64,000 nucleotides of DNA from Hydrogenovibrio sp. JE_KL2 (GTDB lineage: Bacteria; Pseudomonadota; Gammaproteobacteria; Thiomicrospirales; Thiomicrospiraceae): contig NZ_WBJR01000002.1 in NCBI RefSeq assembly GCF_009296185.1, positions 310,001-374,000 on the forward strand, written 5' to 3'. Positions 18,621-44,086 of this stretch are shown one piece after another. A model generated the notes under the pieces. That model was not told the DNA's origin. It saw only the letters and a list, made by a program, of their open reading frames with translations, and did no database searches. The stretch's first letter is position 1, and every line of letters begins with the position of its first letter. The translations under genes and the position numbers were made by a program.

Positions 18621-18683
18621 AATAATAACAATCGGTTTATACTTTACAATCTTTTGTCTAATGAAATCCGAAAATCAGTAAAA

Positions 18684-20675
18684 ATGTCAGAAAAAAACAT
18701 CGTTACATCTAAAAAGCCTAGCCTATTCATCCAATTCCTAGGGTCTATGAACCTTGCTGTGACGCTGTTGGTCATGCTGGCGATCGCCTCTGTTATCGGT
18801 ACTGTTCTCAAACAAAACGAAGCGTTTCAAAATTATATTATTAAGTTTGGACCCTTTTGGACCCACGTATTCGATACACTCGGTCTCTTCCACGTATATG
18901 GTGCCGCTTGGTTTATTTTAGTATTGCTTTTCCTTCTAACATCGACGGCAACCTGTCTGGTACGCAACTCGCCAAGCTTTATCAAAGACATGAAGCATTA
19001 CAGCGAAACCATGTCAATCAACGCTTACAAACACCAGCCTTACTCTGAAACCTATGCGGTTGAAGGCTTTGATGAAGCATTGGCGAAGCAAACCTTAGAA
19101 GAAAACGGTTATAAAACCAAAGTACACCATAGTGAAAATGGTAACGTCACGGTTGCCGGTATGAAGGGTCGTTGGAGCCGTCTAGGTTATATCTTCACCC
19201 ATGTATCCATTATCGTGATTTGCGTCGGCGCACTGTTTGACAGTGATTTGTTATTAAAATACCGACAATTAACTGGGCAACTTGCGCCGGAAACCCGCTC
19301 TATACCTTTGAGTGAAATCCCTCAGAAATCCTGGTTATCGCCAAACAATTTTTCTTTCCGTGGAACAGTCAATGTTGCTGAAGGTCAAAGTACCGATGTG
19401 CTTTTCTTACCTTATGGACAAGGATTCTTGGTACAAAAACTACCTTTCTCTATCCATGTTAAGCAATTCCGTATCCGCTACTACGACACGGGAATGCCAA
19501 AATCCTTTGAGTCAGATGTTGTTCTGACAGCACCAGACTTGAAAAAACCTATCGTTAAGACTATTAAGGTGAACCATCCGCTGGTTTACAAAAACTATTC
19601 AATCTATCAATCATCTTTCGGTGATGGTGGAACCAAACTGAAACTGGCGATTCATCCGCTTTTGTCTCCATATCCAAATGCGCTGGATATCGACACCGCG
19701 GTGAACCAAGTTGAACCCTTGAAAACCCCTATTGGTACTTTCAAAGCCGAATTCAACGATTTCAAGATGTTCAATATCGTGCCTGCAACGAAAGAAGAGC
19801 AAGAAAAAACCGGCAAAAAAATGCATAACAACGGACCTACCATCATCTTTAAGGTTCGTAACGACCAAGGAATTGCCTGGGAATATGAAAACTACATGCA
19901 ACCTAATCTACAGGATGGTCGCTGGTTCTTCATGACGGGTATGCGTACCGAACCCTCAGCACCATATCGTTATCTGTTCATCCCTGCCGATGAAAAGCGA
20001 AGCAAAGATCGTTTCTTCAAATTCTTGGCTTTATTGAACAACCCAGTACAAATCCATCAATATTTGAAAGATGCGATTCCAAAATCAAAGAATTTAGACG
20101 AAAAAACCTACAATCTACAACTTAAATTGTTGCAGCAATTGATGGTATTGTTCCGAGACAAAGGCTTCAGAGGTATTGATTTATTCGTTCAGAAAAAAGT
20201 ACCTCAAAACGAACAGAAAAAGGTCAAAGACTATTACTTAAGTCAAACCAGCTTCGCTTTACAGATGCTTTATCTTGAATTTATGGAAAAGTCATTCCCG
20301 GACAAACACATTACTGGGAATAACTTGTCGGACTTCGACAAACAATGGTTTGAAGATGCATTAAATGCCATCAACAGCTTACCGAGCTATGGGCCGCCAA
20401 TGTATTTTGAAGTAAAATCCTTCAAGCAAATCAATGCAACCGGATTACAAATCACCAAATCCCCTGGAAAAGATGTCGTTTTTTTAGGCAGTGGAATGCT
20501 TATAATTGGGGTATTCATCCTATTCTATGTTCGTCAGAAACGCGTTTGGCTGGCTTACTCTAAACAAGAAAACGCACTCACGATTGCCGGCAAGGACCGA
20601 AAAGACTTTCCGGAAACGAAAATTGAATTTGACCAACTCGTAGAGATTGTCAAAACTAACTTGAAGGTATCATAA
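18684..20675 (+). CDS. resB: Cytochrome c biogenesis protein ResB (Ccs1)
   Basis: This is a 663-residue membrane protein of System II cytochrome c maturation, which with CcsA passes haem across the membrane and joins it to CXXCH motifs in the periplasm. Three N-terminal membrane helices (ending near the GYIFTHVSIIVICVGALFDS segment), a large periplasmic domain and a C-terminal helix before a short cytoplasmic tail fit PF05140. The ATG at 18684 is preferred over an in-frame TTG at 18654, which would sit almost on the predicted transcription start. The next gene, ccsA, begins two bases after its stop. Its clients in this window would include P460 and the haem-c GGDEF-EAL protein. Confidence 0.93.
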   Translation: MSEKNIVTSKKPSLFIQFLGSMNLAVTLLVMLAIASVIGTVLKQNEAFQNYIIKFGPFWTHVFDTLGLFHVYGAAWFILVLLFLLTSTATCLVRNSPSFIKDMKHYSETMSINAYKHQPYSETYAVEGFDEALAKQTLEENGYKTKVHHSENGNVTVAGMKGRWSRLGYIFTHVSIIVICVGALFDSDLLLKYRQLTGQLAPETRSIPLSEIPQKSWLSPNNFSFRGTVNVAEGQSTDVLFLPYGQGFLVQKLPFSIHVKQFRIRYYDTGMPKSFESDVVLTAPDLKKPIVKTIKVNHPLVYKNYSIYQSSFGDGGTKLKLAIHPLLSPYPNALDIDTAVNQVEPLKTPIGTFKAEFNDFKMFNIVPATKEEQEKTGKKMHNNGPTIIFKVRNDQGIAWEYENYMQPNLQDGRWFFMTGMRTEPSAPYRYLFIPADEKRSKDRFFKFLALLNNPVQIHQYLKDAIPKSKNLDEKTYNLQLKLLQQLMVLFRDKGFRGIDLFVQKKVPQNEQKKVKDYYLSQTSFALQMLYLEFMEKSFPDKHITGNNLSDFDKQWFEDALNAINSLPSYGPPMYFEVKSFKQINATGLQITKSPGKDVVFLGSGMLIIGVFILFYVRQKRVWLAYSKQENALTIAGKDRKDFPETKIEFDQLVEIVKTNLKVS

Positions 20676-20677
20676 TC

Positions 20678-21853
20678 ATGAACACTCTCAACTCGACAAT
20701 TGAAACAAACTATGAAAATAAGAACCATTTGATTAGAGAAATCATCTGGGCAGCTCTCGTCGCTATCGGAAGTTTCATGGCATGGCAGGAATTTAATGCC
20801 TTGATGGGGCTTTACGAAGACGCCATTCTGGTCGGGACCACTATAGGTCTGATCATGTTGGGACGCTTTTGGCCGAGCATCAGAACCTTGTCTTATTTCA
20901 TTACCGCTTTAACGCTTTTGGCCTTATGGTCCTACAGCATCCACCATAACCAAATCAGTGCAAACGAACATGCTTTCTTCCTACGCTTCTTGGTCTCCAG
21001 CCAATCGGCATTTATGTGGATGAGTGCTTTGTATGTCATGGCGATGGCAACCTACTTCTTTGCATTGTTCAATAAATCTGAATTTACCGGTAAGGTGGCT
21101 TCTACCTTGGCTTGGTCGGGTGTGGCATTCGGCTTGGTCGGGATGTTGGTTCGCTGGCGTGAATCTTACCTAATCAACCCTGACTATGGTCATATCCCGG
21201 TCAGTAGTTTGTATGAAGTATTTATCCTGTTTACGGTCATCACAACCCTGCTGTACCTTTACTACGAACAAAAATTGAAAACCCGTGCTATGGGTGGTTT
21301 CGTGATGTTAGTGGTGAGTGCTGCGGTTGCCTTTATTCTTTGGTATACCTTTGATCGTCATGCTTACGTGATCCAACCTCTGGTACCTGCTCTGAAAAGT
21401 TACTGGATGAAAATACACGTTCCTGCTAACTTCATCGGTTACGGAAGCTTCTCTATTGCAGCAATGGTCGGTTTTGCTTATTTGTTAACGGATTCTGCAC
21501 TTAAGAGAAACCCAAACAGTGAATTCGCAGCCAGAATGCCTGCATTGGAAAAAATGGATGACTTGATGTACAAAGCCATTTCTCTTGGCTTCGGTTTCTT
21601 CACCATTGCGACTATCCTAGGGGCTCTATGGGCCGCCGAAGCTTGGGGTGGTTACTGGTCTTGGGACCCTAAAGAAACTTGGGCATTGATTGTTTGGTTA
21701 AACTATGCGGCTTGGTTACATATCCGTATGTCTAAAGGCTGGCGTGGACGTCCAATGGCTTACTGGGCATTGATTGGTCTTTTGGTAACGACTTTCGCAT
21801 TCCTTGGTGTGAATATGTTCTTATCAGGACTACACTCATACGGTGAACTTTAA
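20678..21853 (+). CDS. ccsA: Cytochrome c biogenesis protein CcsA (ResC)
   Basis: This is a 391-residue polytopic partner of ResB in System II cytochrome c maturation. The tryptophan-rich haem-handling motif WGGYWSWDPKETW is at 323-335. It is flanked by conserved histidine-containing segments, AWLHIRMSKGWRG (345-357) and GLHSYG near the end. About eight or nine membrane helices are visible. GAAGG lies at the end of resB, upstream of the ATG. Gammaproteobacteria often use System I instead, so the presence of System II is an organism-level clue. dsbA follows 15 bases later. Confidence 0.94.
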   Translation: MNTLNSTIETNYENKNHLIREIIWAALVAIGSFMAWQEFNALMGLYEDAILVGTTIGLIMLGRFWPSIRTLSYFITALTLLALWSYSIHHNQISANEHAFFLRFLVSSQSAFMWMSALYVMAMATYFFALFNKSEFTGKVASTLAWSGVAFGLVGMLVRWRESYLINPDYGHIPVSSLYEVFILFTVITTLLYLYYEQKLKTRAMGGFVMLVVSAAVAFILWYTFDRHAYVIQPLVPALKSYWMKIHVPANFIGYGSFSIAAMVGFAYLLTDSALKRNPNSEFAARMPALEKMDDLMYKAISLGFGFFTIATILGALWAAEAWGGYWSWDPKETWALIVWLNYAAWLHIRMSKGWRGRPMAYWALIGLLVTTFAFLGVNMFLSGLHSYGEL

Positions 21854-31489: not shown

Positions 31490-34108
31490 ATGGATTTAAA
31501 AAAACCGAGCATTCGAAAAATCATCTTGCTAGGCGCTCTAGCAGCGTCTTTATTGATTTTTGTTGGCTCTTATTACTTTTCTTCAAAGCTTTTTGAAAAC
31601 TCGATTATCCAAAATAATCATCGTACGGCAGAGACTTTTTCCAGACTGACTTTTGACAACATGTATCAAATCATGAGTGAAGGTTGGACCAGAAAGCAGC
31701 TGAATGAATTCCTTGAAAAGACCCAAAAGACCTATGAATTATCCGATATCAATATCGATATTTTTCGAGGGCAAGTGGTCAGTAAGCAGTTCGGTGCCAT
31801 TCCACAAACACAGTCGCTTTCACCAGATTTCAAAGCGCGTTTGGATCAGGTTTTCTTAAACAAAGAACCATTGTCGACTAGCCAAAATACTGTTTTGGAC
31901 AGCTTGTTTCCGCTTAAAGCAGAGCAGAAATGTTTGATGTGTCATACCCAGGCAAAAGTAGGGGACGTTTTAGGGGTGATGCATTTTCGTCAGAATATGT
32001 CTCACACGCTATCAGAAGCCAATCAGCGTTTCTTGTTATTCTTCCTTTTCTTGTTGCCATTACCGATTATCGTTGCCTATTTAATCAGTTTGAAATTGAA
32101 CAATTTCTTAGAAAAAGTCATTGATTCCCTCCGTACAAAAGTCGAAAACATTCATAAAGTTAGAGACTTGAAACATATCCAGTCCGCCGACATATTTTAT
32201 GAGTTTAAAGAGCTTGAAAGGTTGGGTTCTGAGTTTGAAAAACTCTCGGAAAAACTTCAAACGGTTGCTGTTGATAGGGATATTCTCGAATTTGAAATCA
32301 AATTGCTCGATAAATTCATTATCACTTCAGAAGTGGTTCGCGATTGGAAAGAACATGTAAATCAATTGATTATTGAAATCACCAAAATATTGCCGATTTA
32401 TGGGCTATTTGTGGTGTTTAGAACAGATGATGAAGAACGTTTCGGCATGGAAATTTTCTGGGCAGGTAAGCCTTCAGAAGAGATGAAGAAGCATTTTGAA
32501 AAAATTGCTGAATCACAAATTTTGGAACACCCGATTCTGAAATTGAATCCGCAAATAGATATCCACCACAGTATTTCCAATGATGAAATTACTTTGGATG
32601 CTATTCAAGAAGATATTGAAACTCAAGCGAAAAGCTTGATTCTTGAAAAGCCTCGTATTGGCGGGGTTGTGGGTATTGGTGTGCAGGCAGTTAGTCAAGA
32701 TTTAACCCGTACTATCGTGATTGAAAGTATTTTGACGACCTTAATCAATGTTGTCGGATCAATCAAAGCCATCAACAAATATACTCATGATTTGGAATAT
32801 TACGCCACGCGGGATCCTTTGACGAATTTGTACAACCGCCGCGTTTTCCACGAATTGTTGGACTACGAAATGCAACGTGCCGATCGTAATAACTATCACT
32901 TTTCGTTGATGATGATTGACTGTGATAACTTCAAACTTATCAATGACCGTTATGGTCATGCATTTGGTGATCAGATGCTTCAGGCTTTGGCTTACAAAGT
33001 TGAAGAAGCACTTAGAAATGAGGATATGTTCAGTCGATACGGCGGTGACGAGTTCTGTGTACTCTTACCGGAAACCGATATTGAGCAAGCGCATTTGATT
33101 GCCCAACGCGTGATGGATGAAATTCATCATATCGAAGAAATTGATCCCAGTGGCGAGCGTGTTTACCTGACCTGTTCGATCGGTCTAGCGAACTATCCTG
33201 AGCACGCCGATAACGCCAAGGATTTATTTATCGTTTCCGATAATATGATGTACAAGGGCAAACGCAACGGTAAAAACCAATTCTGCTTCCCAGATGAAAA
33301 TGAGCTGGCGGATCTTTATCGAAGCAACACCGAAAAAAGTGCGTTCATCATGCAGTCCTTGGCGGATGAAGATTGTATCGAGCCGCATTTCCAACCGATT
33401 TTATCTTTTGCTAACCAAGATGGCGGTATTCAGGTTCATGAATTGTTGATGCGTATTCGTAAGGACGACGAATTGGTTTCGGCAAGTGAATTCATCGATA
33501 TTGCCGAAGGCATGGGGGTCGTGCATCAACTGGATTACTTGTTGATTAAGAAAGCCTTTATCAAGATGCAGGAGCAAAATTATCAAGGGTTGATGTTCAT
33601 TAATATTTCCCCTCGTGCGCTGATATTGAACGAATTCATCAACAAGGTGAAAGAATTGGCTAAGGAGTTTCAGATTGCACCGAATCGTATCGTGCTGGAG
33701 ATTACCGAGCGTGAAACGGTGAGAAACATCAGCCTATTGGAAAAATTCGTAAGAGAGCTGAAATTTGAAGGGTTCATGTTTGCTATTGACGATTTTGGTT
33801 CCGGGTTTTCGTCTTTCCATTATCTGAAGCGTTTCCCAATCGATTATTTGAAGATCGAAGGGGAGTTTATCAGCAATATGTTGAATGACCGAATTGACTT
33901 CGCCTTTGTGGAAAGTGCGGTAACGCTTGCCAGATCGGTAGGTATTGAGACGGTTGCCGAATTCATCGAGTCTGAAGAAGTGCTCAAGGCCGTTAAAGCC
34001 TTCGGTATCACGATGGCGCAAGGGTATTTTATTGGTAAAGCCGAGCCGGAATTCTTAACGGAAGTTCCCGAAAGAGTTCAATCCGCTTTGGCATCCGACA
34101 CCCTTTAG
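31490..34108 (+). CDS. Membrane GGDEF-EAL protein with periplasmic CXXCH haem motif
   Basis: This is an 872-residue c-di-GMP enzyme. A helix at about 10-30, a periplasmic domain with a CLMCH haem-c motif at 148-152, and a second helix at about 180-205 form the sensor. A long linker leads to GGDEF at 518-522, with an inhibitory site RNED at 509-512. The phosphodiesterase domain has ELL at 651-653 in place of EAL but keeps its acidic residue, plus NIS, EITE, DDFGSG, KIEGEF and QGYF. Both activities look possible. The haem motif suggests redox or gas sensing and would need the Ccs system. ATG 31490 is preferred to TTG 31481. Confidence 0.9.
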   Translation: MDLKKPSIRKIILLGALAASLLIFVGSYYFSSKLFENSIIQNNHRTAETFSRLTFDNMYQIMSEGWTRKQLNEFLEKTQKTYELSDINIDIFRGQVVSKQFGAIPQTQSLSPDFKARLDQVFLNKEPLSTSQNTVLDSLFPLKAEQKCLMCHTQAKVGDVLGVMHFRQNMSHTLSEANQRFLLFFLFLLPLPIIVAYLISLKLNNFLEKVIDSLRTKVENIHKVRDLKHIQSADIFYEFKELERLGSEFEKLSEKLQTVAVDRDILEFEIKLLDKFIITSEVVRDWKEHVNQLIIEITKILPIYGLFVVFRTDDEERFGMEIFWAGKPSEEMKKHFEKIAESQILEHPILKLNPQIDIHHSISNDEITLDAIQEDIETQAKSLILEKPRIGGVVGIGVQAVSQDLTRTIVIESILTTLINVVGSIKAINKYTHDLEYYATRDPLTNLYNRRVFHELLDYEMQRADRNNYHFSLMMIDCDNFKLINDRYGHAFGDQMLQALAYKVEEALRNEDMFSRYGGDEFCVLLPETDIEQAHLIAQRVMDEIHHIEEIDPSGERVYLTCSIGLANYPEHADNAKDLFIVSDNMMYKGKRNGKNQFCFPDENELADLYRSNTEKSAFIMQSLADEDCIEPHFQPILSFANQDGGIQVHELLMRIRKDDELVSASEFIDIAEGMGVVHQLDYLLIKKAFIKMQEQNYQGLMFINISPRALILNEFINKVKELAKEFQIAPNRIVLEITERETVRNISLLEKFVRELKFEGFMFAIDDFGSGFSSFHYLKRFPIDYLKIEGEFISNMLNDRIDFAFVESAVTLARSVGIETVAEFIESEEVLKAVKAFGITMAQGYFIGKAEPEFLTEVPERVQSALASDTL

Positions 34109-36329: not shown

Positions 36330-37595
36330 ATGACTGAAAAATCAACGCAAAAAATCATCGATGAGCTTTTCCGACATTTTTATCGGGAGTTGCTTTCTGA
36401 ACCTCACTACGCCGTGTTTTTTGAAAGTCATGACGTGGATTTGATTCGTCAAAAACAAGGACAATCTTTCCTAGAATTACTTGAGTTGTCCGACGAAGAT
36501 ATTCATGAAAACGGATTGAAAATCGGCAAAGTGCATATCAATATAGGTCTTCCTTTTGAAGATTTATATGCCGGTTATCACAAACTTCAACAGCTTATTC
36601 CTATCTATTTCAATGAACATTGGTTGGTGGATCATCAGCTTTTCAGAAGACTGAGTTTGCAGAAAATGGCGGCGGCTGAGGGCTATTTTCAGAGTTATAT
36701 TCAGCAAATGGCACATGAAATAGCGATAACTCTCGAAAAACGCAACCTGTTGCTACGCCGCAGTTATGCTGAGCTCGCGAACCAACCACTCATATGTTTG
36801 AAAGAGATTCTTACTCATTTGCTGGATGGGAACTCGCCTTTACCCGAGATGGCTTATGGGGCTTGTCCGTTGACCGAGCAGTTGGCTAACCACACTTGCT
36901 TAGATGATGACGAAAGAACAGAGTTGGAAAAGCTACATTCCTTGCAGCATATCATGAGCCAAAACTTCCTGTTCTTTGTAAAAAGTAAGGAATATGCTTT
37001 GGCGGTTTTCCTGTTGTCCCGGTTTTATGGCATGGCACTGGATTTGTCGAACCGTATCGGTTTAGCGTTTCAAATGTCTTTTATTCAAGAGTTACAAAAA
37101 GATCCTTTGACCCATTTCTATCTTCGACATGATATGGAAGCCTTGATAGACAGCGCTCTGAGCCTGTCAATTGCCAATAAACGCAATGTTGCAATTGTTA
37201 TGCTGGATTTAGATGATTTTAAATTCATCAATGACAGTCATGGGCATTTAGCGGGCGACCATGTGTTGAAAGAAGTCAGTGAACTCTTCTCGCAAGTTGT
37301 GCGAGAATCAGACAAGATTTTCCGTTATGGAGGGGAAGAGTTCTTGATCTTGTTGGACGGTGCGGGGATTGACGTGGCATCCGGTATTGCCGAGAGATTG
37401 CGCAAACTGATAGAAAACCATCCCTTTGATTTGGGGATGCATCGAACAACGAAAATTACCGCGAGTATCGGTATCGCAGCTTACCATCCTGCAACAATGG
37501 AAAAAGTGCCTTCAGCAAGGCACTTTATAGATATTTGCGATCGAATGTTATTGAAAGCAAAACACAGCGGAAAGAACCGCATCGAGTATTGCTAA
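36330..37595 (+). CDS. Globin-coupled-type diguanylate cyclase
   Basis: This is a 421-residue soluble diguanylate cyclase. The N-terminal 150 residues resemble the sensor globin of globin-coupled proteins. GKVHINIGLPFEDLYAGY (66-83) has a histidine at 69 in the position expected for the haem-binding proximal His, followed by the family's IGL and GY features. A helical middle region leads to GGEEF at 334-338 with inhibitory site RESD at 325-328, so synthesis with product inhibition is expected. The layout resembles E. coli DosC, an oxygen-responsive enzyme. Haem binding here is inferred. It is divergent from the Na/Pi gene; CAGGAGG lies upstream. Confidence 0.82.
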   Translation: MTEKSTQKIIDELFRHFYRELLSEPHYAVFFESHDVDLIRQKQGQSFLELLELSDEDIHENGLKIGKVHINIGLPFEDLYAGYHKLQQLIPIYFNEHWLVDHQLFRRLSLQKMAAAEGYFQSYIQQMAHEIAITLEKRNLLLRRSYAELANQPLICLKEILTHLLDGNSPLPEMAYGACPLTEQLANHTCLDDDERTELEKLHSLQHIMSQNFLFFVKSKEYALAVFLLSRFYGMALDLSNRIGLAFQMSFIQELQKDPLTHFYLRHDMEALIDSALSLSIANKRNVAIVMLDLDDFKFINDSHGHLAGDHVLKEVSELFSQVVRESDKIFRYGGEEFLILLDGAGIDVASGIAERLRKLIENHPFDLGMHRTTKITASIGIAAYHPATMEKVPSARHFIDICDRMLLKAKHSGKNRIEYC

Positions 37596-41184: not shown

Positions 41185-41371
41185 TTTGCTCCCAAGAGGG
41201 AAATGACATCCTAAATAACCCAAACGGTTCCACATGGAACGTTTAGGTTACGTAAAAACTCTAATTTATTTGAAATATCGCCGTTTTAAAAGGCTTTTTT
41301 CATAAAAGGTTAAAAATTCTCTTATCCGCTTTTTGCTATTGTTTGCCAAAAATCTGGATAAGGAAAATAGG

Positions 41372-44086
41372 ATGTTGAAATTAAAGAATAAGATTATTCT
41401 GAACTTAATGCTTGTAGGAATTTTACCACTTATGGTGGTGGTTTCCATTTCTTGGTTTTTGACCAAAGAGGAAATCTCTAAAACCACCTACAGTCATTTG
41501 GAAGCGGTCAGAGATCTGAAAGAACATGCCTTAGCCGACTATTTCCAACAAGTGAAAGCGCAACTGCTCAATTTGTCTTCAACCAGCCGTGTGCAACGTA
41601 TGGCGGGGTATATTGCGCCCAATTTTGCTTATATGGTGGATTTCCTTGCGGTGAAAAAAGATGAGCAGAAGGCCGCCGTTAAGCATTTCTGGGAAACGGA
41701 TTTTGCCAAGGAGTATCGCAAACACAACCCAAACAATGATATTGATTTGGATAAATTGTTTTCCGAAATGGATTCCTCCGCCATCAGCGCCCAATATTTA
41801 TATTTGGCATCCAACCCTTACCCTGTGGGTCAAAAAAACAAGATGCTGACCGCCAAGAAAGATGAATCGCCTTATTCGGACTTTCATTCGTTGAATCATG
41901 CTTACTTCAACCGTTACCTCAAAAATTTCGGTTTGTTTGATATTTTTGTTATCAGTAATGACGGGCGAGTGGGGTACAGCGTTTACAAAAATCTGGAGTT
42001 CGGAACGGACTTGAATAAAGGGCCTTGGAAAAACTCAGGTTTGGCACAGGCATATCGCATGGCCAAGAAGCTGAAAAAGGGCGAAGTCTATTTAGAGGAT
42101 TTTGCACTTTATACGCCTTTTTATGATGCGCCGAGCAGTTTTATCGCCACTCCGATTTTTGATGATGATGGACGCCAAGGCACGCTGGTCTTCCAGTTGC
42201 CATTGGACAAAATCACTCAGGTGATGAGCGTGCGCTCAGGCATGGGGAAAACCGGAGAATCCTATTTGGTCGGGCCGGATGGCTTATTGCGCTCGGATAC
42301 ACACCTTGATACTTCTCACTTCAATGTTGTGAATGCGTTCCGTGATCCGAGCAAATACACCATCAAAACCCCTCAGGTCGAGCAAGCGATTAAAGGTCAA
42401 AAAGGGGTAATGGAAACCACCAATTACCTACATGAATCGGTATTGTCTGCTTATGCACCCATCGACATTCTCGGTAAGCATTGGGAAATGATTGTCGATG
42501 TCAATACGAAAGAAGACTTTGCCTCTCTGACGCAATACATGAAGTTGATTATGATTGTTACCGGCATCATTTTAATCGCTTTGATTTTGGTTGGTGTTGC
42601 CTTGAGTCATAGTATTACCAAGCCGATTTTGAAAATTTCCGAGTTTATCCGCACGGTCGGTAAAACCGGCGATTTTTCACTGAAAGCAGAATTGAAGTCA
42701 AAAGATGAAATCGGTGAAATGGCAAAAGCCTTCAATGAAATGACGGGCGACTTATCGGCGATTTTCAAAGAAATCAACTTTGTGGTCGATCAGATTTCCA
42801 AAGGGCAATTCCAGCATAAGATTTCCGGGGAGTTTTCCGGTGATTTGGCGACACTGAAAACCGGTGTGAACACCTCTGTGGAAATGATTGAAAAAACCAT
42901 GAACGTCATTCGTACGGCGTTGGAAAATCTTGAGAAAGGAGATTTCGAGACCAAGATTCTGGTGGATGGCGATATTCAAGGCGGTTTCCAAAAGATTCTT
43001 TCCAATCTTGCATCCGCGATGTCGGGATTGAACTTGATTATCAATGAAATCAACCAAGTCATGCGTGAAGTCAAACACGGTAACTTTAACCACCGTTCCG
43101 AGTCGGAAGCCAAAGGGGAGTTGAAGTATCTACAAAACAATATCAATGTGTCGCTCGATGCGCTGCAAAGTGCCTTCTCCGAAATTAGACAGGTGGTAGA
43201 AGCCCAAGCGAAGGGCGACTTAACCCAGATGATCCAAGGCGATTATCCGGGAGATCTTGGGATTCTGGCGAAGGATTTGAATGATGCAACGCAAGCCAGT
43301 CAAATTGCTTTGCATCAAGTGAGTTTGAACGTTCAGTCGGTTTACGACAGCGCGCAAGAAATTGCGCGGGGAAGTGAAGATGTGTCGTATCGAACGCAGA
43401 ATCAGGCGGCAGCGCTGGAACAAACCGTGGCAACCATGGAGCAGATGAATTCCGCAGTAGCGCAAAATGCCGAGAACGCGCATAGTGCCGCGCAAAAAGC
43501 GGAGATGACGGCTAAAACGACCGAAGAGGGACGTGTTGTCATGCAGCAGCTTCAAAGTGCCATGATGGAGATTGCGGAATCCAGCCAACGTATTCCAGCC
43601 ATTATTGAGCTGATTGAAAGTATTGCGTTCCAAACCAACTTATTGGCACTGAATGCCGCAGTAGAGGCAGCAAGGGCAGGAGAACAGGGTCGAGGCTTTG
43701 CCGTGGTGGCGTCTGAAGTGAGAACCCTGGCGGGGAAATCGACCTCGGCGGCTCACGATATTAAAGTCTTGATTGAAGATTCGGTTTCCAAAGTTGATTC
43801 CGGTACAAAATTGACGCATTCTTCTATGGAGTTTTTAGACAAAATCCATATGAGCATTAAGGAAGTGAACAGTGTGGTGGCGGACATCAGCCATGCAACG
43901 GCAGAGCAAAGCATGGGCATCAAACAGGTGAATACCTCTATGATGTCAATCGATGCTGACAACCAGCAAAACGCGGCGCTGTCCGAACAAACCGCCAGTG
44001 CTGCGGATGGCTTGAAAGAAATGGCGGAGAAATTGGAACAGTCCATTTCGCAATTTCAGCTTTCCAACCGATTAGAAAACTTTTAG
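41372..44086 (+). CDS. Methyl-accepting chemotaxis protein with repeated HAMP units
   Basis: This is a 904-residue chemoreceptor. A first helix (about 8-30), a large periplasmic Cache-type domain with [16 protein letters not shown], and a second helix near 395-415 are followed by a HAMP domain. At least two or three further HAMP-like repeats occur ([40 protein letters not shown]). The signalling hairpin reads [20 protein letters not shown]. No methyltransferase-docking pentapeptide is visible at the C-terminus. AAGGAAAATAGG precedes the ATG. No chemotaxis genes adjoin it, so it is an orphan receptor. The ligand is unknown. Confidence 0.92.

Follow-up and report, generated by a model that had tools for sequence, protein, structure and literature searches.

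Haem sensors joined to the turnover of cyclic dimeric guanosine monophosphate (c-di-GMP) include DosP and the globin-coupled c-di-GMP enzymes, in which a cytoplasmic, non-covalently bound haem is linked to a GGDEF domain or a GGDEF-EAL pair. In contrast to these, a periplasmic, covalently held haem is predicted for the GGDEF-EAL protein described here, which is encoded in a 64,000-nucleotide stretch of DNA from Hydrogenovibrio sp. JE_KL2 (the window; positions 310001-374000 of contig C2, NZ_WBJR01000002.1, in a genome of 2.44 Mb). A nearer relative is the sCache_heme sensor (DUF3365/Tll0287-like, PF11845), the subject of a February 2026 preprint by Deshpande et al. (PMC12889525), which mentions GGDEF/EAL fusions. 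The window protein shares with sCache_heme a short CxxCH helix before the last strand of a periplasmic single Cache domain, and signalling outputs that include c-di-GMP enzymes, but it scores below the PF11845 cut-off and has a methionine at position 62 as its predicted distal haem ligand. The words 'methionine', 'Met60' and 'Thiomicrospira' are absent from the main text of the preprint, and the term sCache_heme was found in no other paper of the open-access literature searched, subscription journals being outside its scope. Hydrogenovibrio and c-di-GMP occur together in one paper of that literature.

Among solved structures, the best profile matches are GSU0935 and GSU0582 of Geobacter sulfurreducens (3b42 and 3b47), with which the distal methionine and the CxxCH motif align; their output is a methyl-accepting chemotaxis protein (MCP) rather than GGDEF-EAL, and identity in Foldseek alignments is 13-18%. 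Tll0287 of Thermosynechococcus (5b82), also a CxxCH c-haem protein, matches the predicted fold with a Z of 10.7 over 128 residues; it differs in having Cys/His ligation and in standing alone (PMC12889525). A cluster of one-haem proteins annotated 'diguanylate cyclase with PAS/PAC sensor' appears for Gallionellaceae in PMC10734462.

The sensor type is already known from the 2026 preprint, and the window protein is a well-conserved, divergent new branch. New here are a full-length protein family, a distal-ligand prediction and a clade lacking the haem site. With a probability of about 0.72, the window protein is a one-component system in which a c-type haem in a periplasmic Cache domain would control c-di-GMP turnover by the GGDEF and EAL domains through His152/Met62 ligand exchange. 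A reading made from the sequence alone (the sequence-only reading) had proposed a c-type haem sensor on a c-di-GMP enzyme, and this is favoured by the conserved cysteines, by likeness in predicted fold and profile to c-haem sensors, and by the presence of ResB and CcsB in the window.

Predicted sensor fold, CxxCH motif and conservation

The reading frame begins with ATG and runs to the stop codon that closes the gene (Table 1); another in-frame start, TTG, lies 9 bases upstream. From N to C terminus the order is a transmembrane (TM) helix, about 150 periplasmic residues, a second TM helix, a linker, GGDEF and EAL, a two-helix topology predicted from the sequence together with an AlphaFold2 (AF2) model. 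The sequence-only reading had placed a CLMCH motif at residues 148-152 between two membrane helices, ahead of a GGDEF domain with an inhibitory site and an EAL-type domain with ELL. Each element was located: the motif in the translation, helices at 8-62, 171-188 and 190-214 in the AF2 model, GGDEF at 518-522, R509-x-x-D512, and ELL at 651-653. No Pfam family scores above its cut-off N-terminal of GGDEF in a scan of the whole protein, and no NCBIfam equivalog does so for the whole protein among the 25 matches listed.

Table 1. Coordinates of the sensor-enzyme gene, its parts and the cytochrome c maturation genes in the window
Feature	Coordinates	Strand	Basis
Whole gene: c-haem sensor, GAF-like linker, GGDEF, EAL; 872 aa (predicted architecture)	31490..34108	+	
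First TM helix, ~residues 8-33	31511..31588	+	AF2 model and hydrophobic stretch in sequence
Predicted periplasmic single-Cache domain with CxxCH, ~residues 34-182	31589..32035	+	AF2, Foldseek, VIA-align, profile match
Met62, predicted distal haem ligand	31673..31675	+	Aligned with Met60 of GSU0935
Haem c attachment motif C148-L-M-C151-H152	31931..31945	+	Sequence, conservation
Second TM helix, ~residues 183-207	32036..32110	+	AF2 helices 171-188 and 190-214
Tentative cytoplasmic coupling region, two-helix HAMP-like and GAF-like, ~residues 208-434	32111..32791	+	AF2, VIA-align
GGDEF domain, residues 439-597; GGDEF 518-522, RxxD 509-512	32804..33280	+	Pfam, conservation
EAL domain, residues 628-850; E651, N705, E737, E740, D767, D768, K788, E824, Q844	33371..34039	+	
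ResB (18654-20675) and CcsB (20678-21853), System II cytochrome c maturation	18654..21853	+	Pfam, TIGR03144

The AF2 model of the sensor, built from 75 rows, has a predicted local distance difference test (pLDDT) of 91. One long helix carries the first TM segment on to residue 62 and is followed by a helix at 68-83, a strand at 87-93, two helices, strands at 128-132 and 135-143, a helix at 146-150 that holds CxxCH, a strand at 160-169 and a helix leading to the second TM segment. The fold of this model, which is a prediction and not a solved structure, is a single Cache with the short CxxCH helix between its last two strands, the layout of sCache_heme. It is assigned to the haem type because this helix occupies the same place as in solved haem sensors. 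Foldseek against the PDB ranked an integrative WalK model first, followed by 3b42 (E = 3.1e-4) and 3b47 (E = 2.7e-3) within ranks two to four, and 5b82 seventh (E = 7.8e-3). With VIA-align the WalK model was again first (Z 12.4) and 5b82 second (root mean square deviation (rmsd) 3.7), many other Cache-type sensor domains lay below at Z of about 7-9, and 3b42 and 3b47 were not among the 50 matches listed. Single-sequence PDB searches with two relatives (L024 and L016) returned no haem sensor, and all 60 PDB matches listed for the profile of the family alignment introduced below begin at query residue 418 or later, in the GGDEF/EAL part.

Of the 61 other genomes of the taxonomic family, 14 have a homologue that aligns with the query, residues 1-439, over almost its full length (40-94% identity). 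One copy (L003, genome G007, of the same genus as the window) has two in-frame stops in its 5' part and still encodes CLVCH; it was left out of the family, 75-row and 60-row alignments. None of the 45 GGDEF matches in that genome is interrupted by a stop, in contrast to this broken orthologue. The family alignment comprises the window protein and the 13 intact homologues, all of which keep C148, C151 and H152. Two search patterns, both around residues 54-70 and neither touching CxxCH, were used to scan named genomes and gave 71 relatives, every one with CxxCH; 68 have GGDEF in the same frame and 67 have DDFG in addition. These 71 loci, the window protein and L002, L009 and L015 form the 75-row sensor alignment. 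For a 60-row full-length alignment, 12 of the 68 full-length loci were dropped as redundant, and L042 (truncated at a contig end) and two short frames that lack GGDEF (L093 and L097) were left out.

CxxCH stands in all 60 rows of the full-length alignment, where the invariant sensor residues are M58, M62, S63, G65, W66, R68, F74, R93, A144, C148, C151, H152 and G162; several of the M58-F74 group fall within the search patterns, and the cysteines and His152 lie outside them. Conservation of the cysteines, on which the sequence-only reading had staked its proposal, thus holds across the 13 family homologues, the 71 relatives and the 60 rows. The strict conservation of CxxCH that marks sCache_heme is broken in one derived clade, whose four proteins keep both cysteines and lose the histidine. 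When the protein's own residues are shuffled, CxxCH arises in 26 of 20,000 cases, a frequency that, together with its conservation in relatives, rules out a chance motif.

The relatives belong to genera that include Thiomicrospira, Thiomicrorhabdus, Thioalkalivibrio, Marinobacterium, Nitrincola, Neptuniibacter, Marinobacter, Zobellella, Azonexus, Dechloromonas and Azoarcus, a family range that takes in sulfur oxidisers along with several genera usually considered denitrifiers. Among 369 evenly sampled genomes of the class, 26 had a match, of which 15 at E < 1e-70, the window's genome included, were counted as carriers and 11 weaker ones as non-carriers. The carriers span 10 families, and one of them is a haem-less member.

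Met62, the haem-less clade and a proposed ligand-exchange switch

A profile was built from 19 sensors, 16 of this protein family and three with different architectures. Its match to 3b42 (E = 3.9e-4) extends from the first helix as far as CxxCH, and 3b47 comes second at 0.003. Counted by hand in the alignment with 3b42, chain residue 26 lies opposite Met62 and chain residue 110 opposite H152. The haem residues of GSU0935 are Cys140, Cys143, His144 and Met60 (PMC8396549); chain residue 110 is therefore His144, the offset is 34 and chain residue 26 is Met60. In the GSU0935 crystal Met60 serves one of the two haems as distal ligand, and in the reduced protein NO (nitric oxide) and CO (carbon monoxide) displace it (PMC8396549). 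The alignment thus puts Met62, by position, where GSU0935 has its first-helix methionine; the distance to the proximal histidine is 84 residues there (Met60-His144) and 90 here (Met62-His152). Met62 is accordingly predicted from the sequence to be the distal haem ligand. Across the 19 rows Met62 and Gly65 are invariant along with C148, C151 and H152, while Met58 varies. Methionine stands at 62 in 75 of 75 rows of the sensor alignment and in all 18 other loci with CxxCH from the class search (L099-L111 and L113-L117, including two whose frames are shortened). In L118, which is more distant, Met62 and CxxCH are retained and Met58 is missing.

In the carrier without the haem site (L112, genome G220), C-x-x-C-P replaces CxxCH and neither Met58 nor Met62 remains. 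The family of this carrier (57 genomes) yielded another three full-length proteins of this sort, with identities of 61-85%. All four (L129-L132, L129 being the same gene as L112) keep both cysteines and have lost His152 and Met62; their GGDEF motif is intact, as are the EAL motifs that were inspected. The count omits two weak matches (L134, L135) and L133, whose sensor is missing, probably because of a contig end, the upstream flank stopping about 10 bases past the match. Joint loss of His152 and Met62 is what would be expected if both serve the same haem. In this clade the haem site has possibly changed to a thiol or metal site.

The window protein very probably carries a covalent haem outside the inner membrane. 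ResB (PF05140, E = 2.3e-124) and CcsB (TIGR03144, E = 2.3e-74, above cut-off) in the window indicate that System II maturation is present, and these two proteins would be expected to attach the haem. One c-type haem would be held through C148 and C151, with His152 as proximal and Met62 as distal ligand, and in the resting reduced state the iron would be six-coordinate. Oxidation, or binding of NO (or CO), would break the Met62-iron bond. Since Met62 is predicted at the end of the helix that extends the first TM segment, and the CxxCH helix just before the strand that leads to the second, ligand exchange would shift the first TM helix against the second. This shift could pass through the HAMP-like and GAF-like linker to GGDEF and EAL and so change c-di-GMP. 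In this scheme we infer haem attachment, ligation, trigger, direction of response and dominant enzyme activity; the frame, domains, predicted fold, conservation, Met62-Met60 alignment and joint loss of His152 and Met62 were computed.

Several points weigh against a haem switch of this kind. In the GSU0582 crystal and in the other haem of GSU0935 the sixth ligand is water (PMC8396549). Nine haem-sensor proteins with a degenerate GGDEF domain keep CxxCH without a methionine at 62, so that the wider family does not share this methionine throughout. The disappearance of His152 together with Met62 counts as a single evolutionary event. The patterns used to retrieve the 71 loci include Met62 and Met58, so an unbiased view of these two residues comes only from rows retrieved by protein similarity. 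The window protein scores 13.0 bits against PF11845 (Tll0287-like; cut-off 24.1, E = 0.14) and 13.8 bits against PF21563 (Mcp40H-20_sensor; cut-off 27, E = 0.075), a model taken from its name to cover GSU0582 and GSU0935. At E up to 0.5 these models match 61 (best 1.1e-4) and 50 (best 6e-6) of the 75 sensors, respectively. Being below the PF11845 cut-off, the protein is not filed under that curated family and is called a divergent relative. Against the solved haem sensors Foldseek gives low TM-scores (0.25-0.33 by query, with rmsd of 4 to 15), a result that may be explained in part by the swapped dimers of GSU0582 and GSU0935, and middling Z values are commonplace among Cache folds.

A periplasmic c-type haem and c-di-GMP turnover in one polypeptide would make ligation and output measurable on the same protein. 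Met62 and the natural haem-less orthologues would provide a clean test of ligand-exchange signalling in Cache haem domains, and the same material bears on whether NO or redox is the stimulus, a question that the 2026 preprint addresses with one signalling-type protein. A wider generalization is rather doubtful: that a widespread GGDEF-EAL family for which NCBIfam has no dedicated equivalog sets c-di-GMP by redox or NO through a ligand-exchange switch, a periplasmic His/Met c-haem whose labile methionine lies on the first TM helix, and that a side clade gave up the haem and kept CxxC and the enzymes, as if for a thiol/disulfide or metal sensor.

Candidate stimuli

The sequence-only reading had listed redox state, sulfide, NO and oxygen as stimuli. 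Redox and NO find support in characterised relatives; oxygen is disfavoured, and sulfide comes down to one remark in a review.

NO is the physiological signal at odds somewhat short of even: ferrous haem would bind it tightly, Met62 would be displaced and c-di-GMP would change, and, held with the same reserve, the protein would then, in nitrosative stress or denitrification, switch the cell between an attached and a free-living state. Consistent with this, a Pseudomonas azotoformans sCache_heme protein with a HAMP domain binds NO tightly and lets it go slowly (koff 6.25e-4 per s; PMC12889525). From the stand-alone domain of P. putida, NO dissociates within minutes. Among the 369 class genomes, NnrS is present in 14 of 15 carriers versus 165 of 354 non-carriers (P = 2.6e-4, one-sided Fisher test), and NosZ in 6 of 15 versus 51 of 354 (P = 0.017). 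Of the 10 carrier families, nine have NnrS and four NosZ. The window's genome has NnrS but no NosZ match. However, FixO, a cbb3 oxidase subunit taken as control, is also enriched (14 of 15 carriers versus 212 of 354, P = 0.006). When only FixO-positive genomes are compared, the excess of NnrS is weak (13 of 14 versus 142 of 212, P = 0.034; without the haem-less carrier, 12 of 13, P = 0.046). Moreover, the 15 carriers represent 10 families, the haem-less member included, and no NO-related gene was recognised by eye among recurrent neighbours. In the window's own family, NnrS occurs in 14 of 15 carriers, among which the broken G007 copy is included, versus 28 of 47 others, a difference of little weight since these carriers fall in three genera (10, 4 and 1). 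The genome association thus leans towards NO but is partly confounded with general respiratory flexibility.

Periplasmic redox state is a serious possibility, with the odds against it: oxidation of the haem would free Met62 and flip the output, as proposed for GSU0582 and GSU0935. These two proteins change spin state and ligation with redox, at potentials of -156 and -251 mV, and they also bind NO and CO (PMC8396549). Met62 aligns with Met60, and the FixO enrichment suggests life at oxic-anoxic boundaries. On the other hand, FixO is not enriched within NnrS-positive genomes (13 of 14 carriers versus 142 of 165, P = 0.41), and PMC12889525 argues that the signalling fusions are NO sensors, not redox devices.

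Oxygen or sulfide as the sensed ligand is improbable. The hosts include microaerobic sulfur oxidisers, but several carrier genera are not known as sulfur oxidisers. The review PMC8396549 ties Tll0287 to sulfide metabolism; oxygen is disfavoured because none of the sCache_heme proteins tested forms a stable oxygen complex (PMC12889525). That the CxxC pair works without haem as a disulfide switch or metal site is very unlikely, for although the four proteins of the haem-less clade keep both cysteines and intact enzyme motifs without His152 and Met62, which suggests that a haem-free CxxC can function there, His152 is present in the 71 relatives and 60 full-length rows, Met62 was lost when His152 was lost, and the predicted fold and motif position match solved c-haem domains.

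Output domains, linker and gene neighbourhood

The output half of the proposed haem-controlled enzyme has the sequence features of c-di-GMP enzymes. Pfam assigns GGDEF at E = 1.5e-47 (161.8 bits, cut-off 23.8) and EAL at E = 1.6e-55 (188.5 bits, cut-off 31.3). In the 60-row alignment the GGDEF motif is intact throughout, and the RxxD site has R at 509 in 39 rows and D at 512 in 47. The EAL residues E651, N705, E740, D767, D768, K788, E824 and Q844 are kept in all 59 rows with that region, the sole gap being L070, which ends early, and E737 is nearly invariant. These nine are among the usual residues of EAL domains.

The linker tentatively comprises a HAMP-like and a GAF-like part. Its AF2 model has a pLDDT of 68, and many of the 50 VIA-align matches listed are GAF domains (best Z 9.7). 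Foldseek gave no match at E of 1e-3 or below. The linker of the window protein has no Pfam family, and one of 48 aligned middle regions (the window protein, L009 and 46 of the 68) has a weak HAMP match.

Other proteins vary the output. L113 and L115 are second paralogues that keep CxxCH and GGDEF and have a degenerate EAL domain, with the second D of DDFG and the AEF glutamate lost. The nine CxxCH-sensor proteins with a degenerate GGDEF domain (L017-L023, L025 and L026, from nine genomes) are about 450 residues long; their GGDEF motif is gone, RxxD is retained in 9 of 9, and none has a methionine at 62. Loss of the motif with retention of RxxD suggests that they may be c-di-GMP receptors rather than enzymes. 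In 7 of 7 wider regions (L119-L125; Pfam was run on the L119 copies only) their genes are arranged tail to tail with a gene run containing HemD and HemY.

Neighbouring genes were clustered for 64 of the 71 loci and the window; L044, L049, L052, L068, L076, L093 and L097 had no clean target frame. The commonest cluster occurs in 16 loci, in mixed positions and strands, and the next in 10, 9 and 9. Read by eye without annotation, the clusters of these loci contain no recognised haem, NO or respiratory partner. The flanking genes are common to a close relative (G008), not to two more distant copies inspected. That no neighbour recurs in most loci suits a self-contained sensor-effector.

Downstream of the gene by 2.2 kb, at 36330-37595, lies a protoglobin-GGDEF gene (PF11563, E = 9.5e-7; GGDEF, E = 4.3e-35), whose product is likely a globin-coupled diguanylate cyclase. 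It also adjoins the G008 copy and was not seen at other orthologues in the clustered locus set. At 41333-44086 the window encodes a large MCP that has several HAMP repeats and matches dCache below the threshold. The window's genome holds 46 GGDEF matches in its 2.44 Mb, a dense c-di-GMP network for this genome size.

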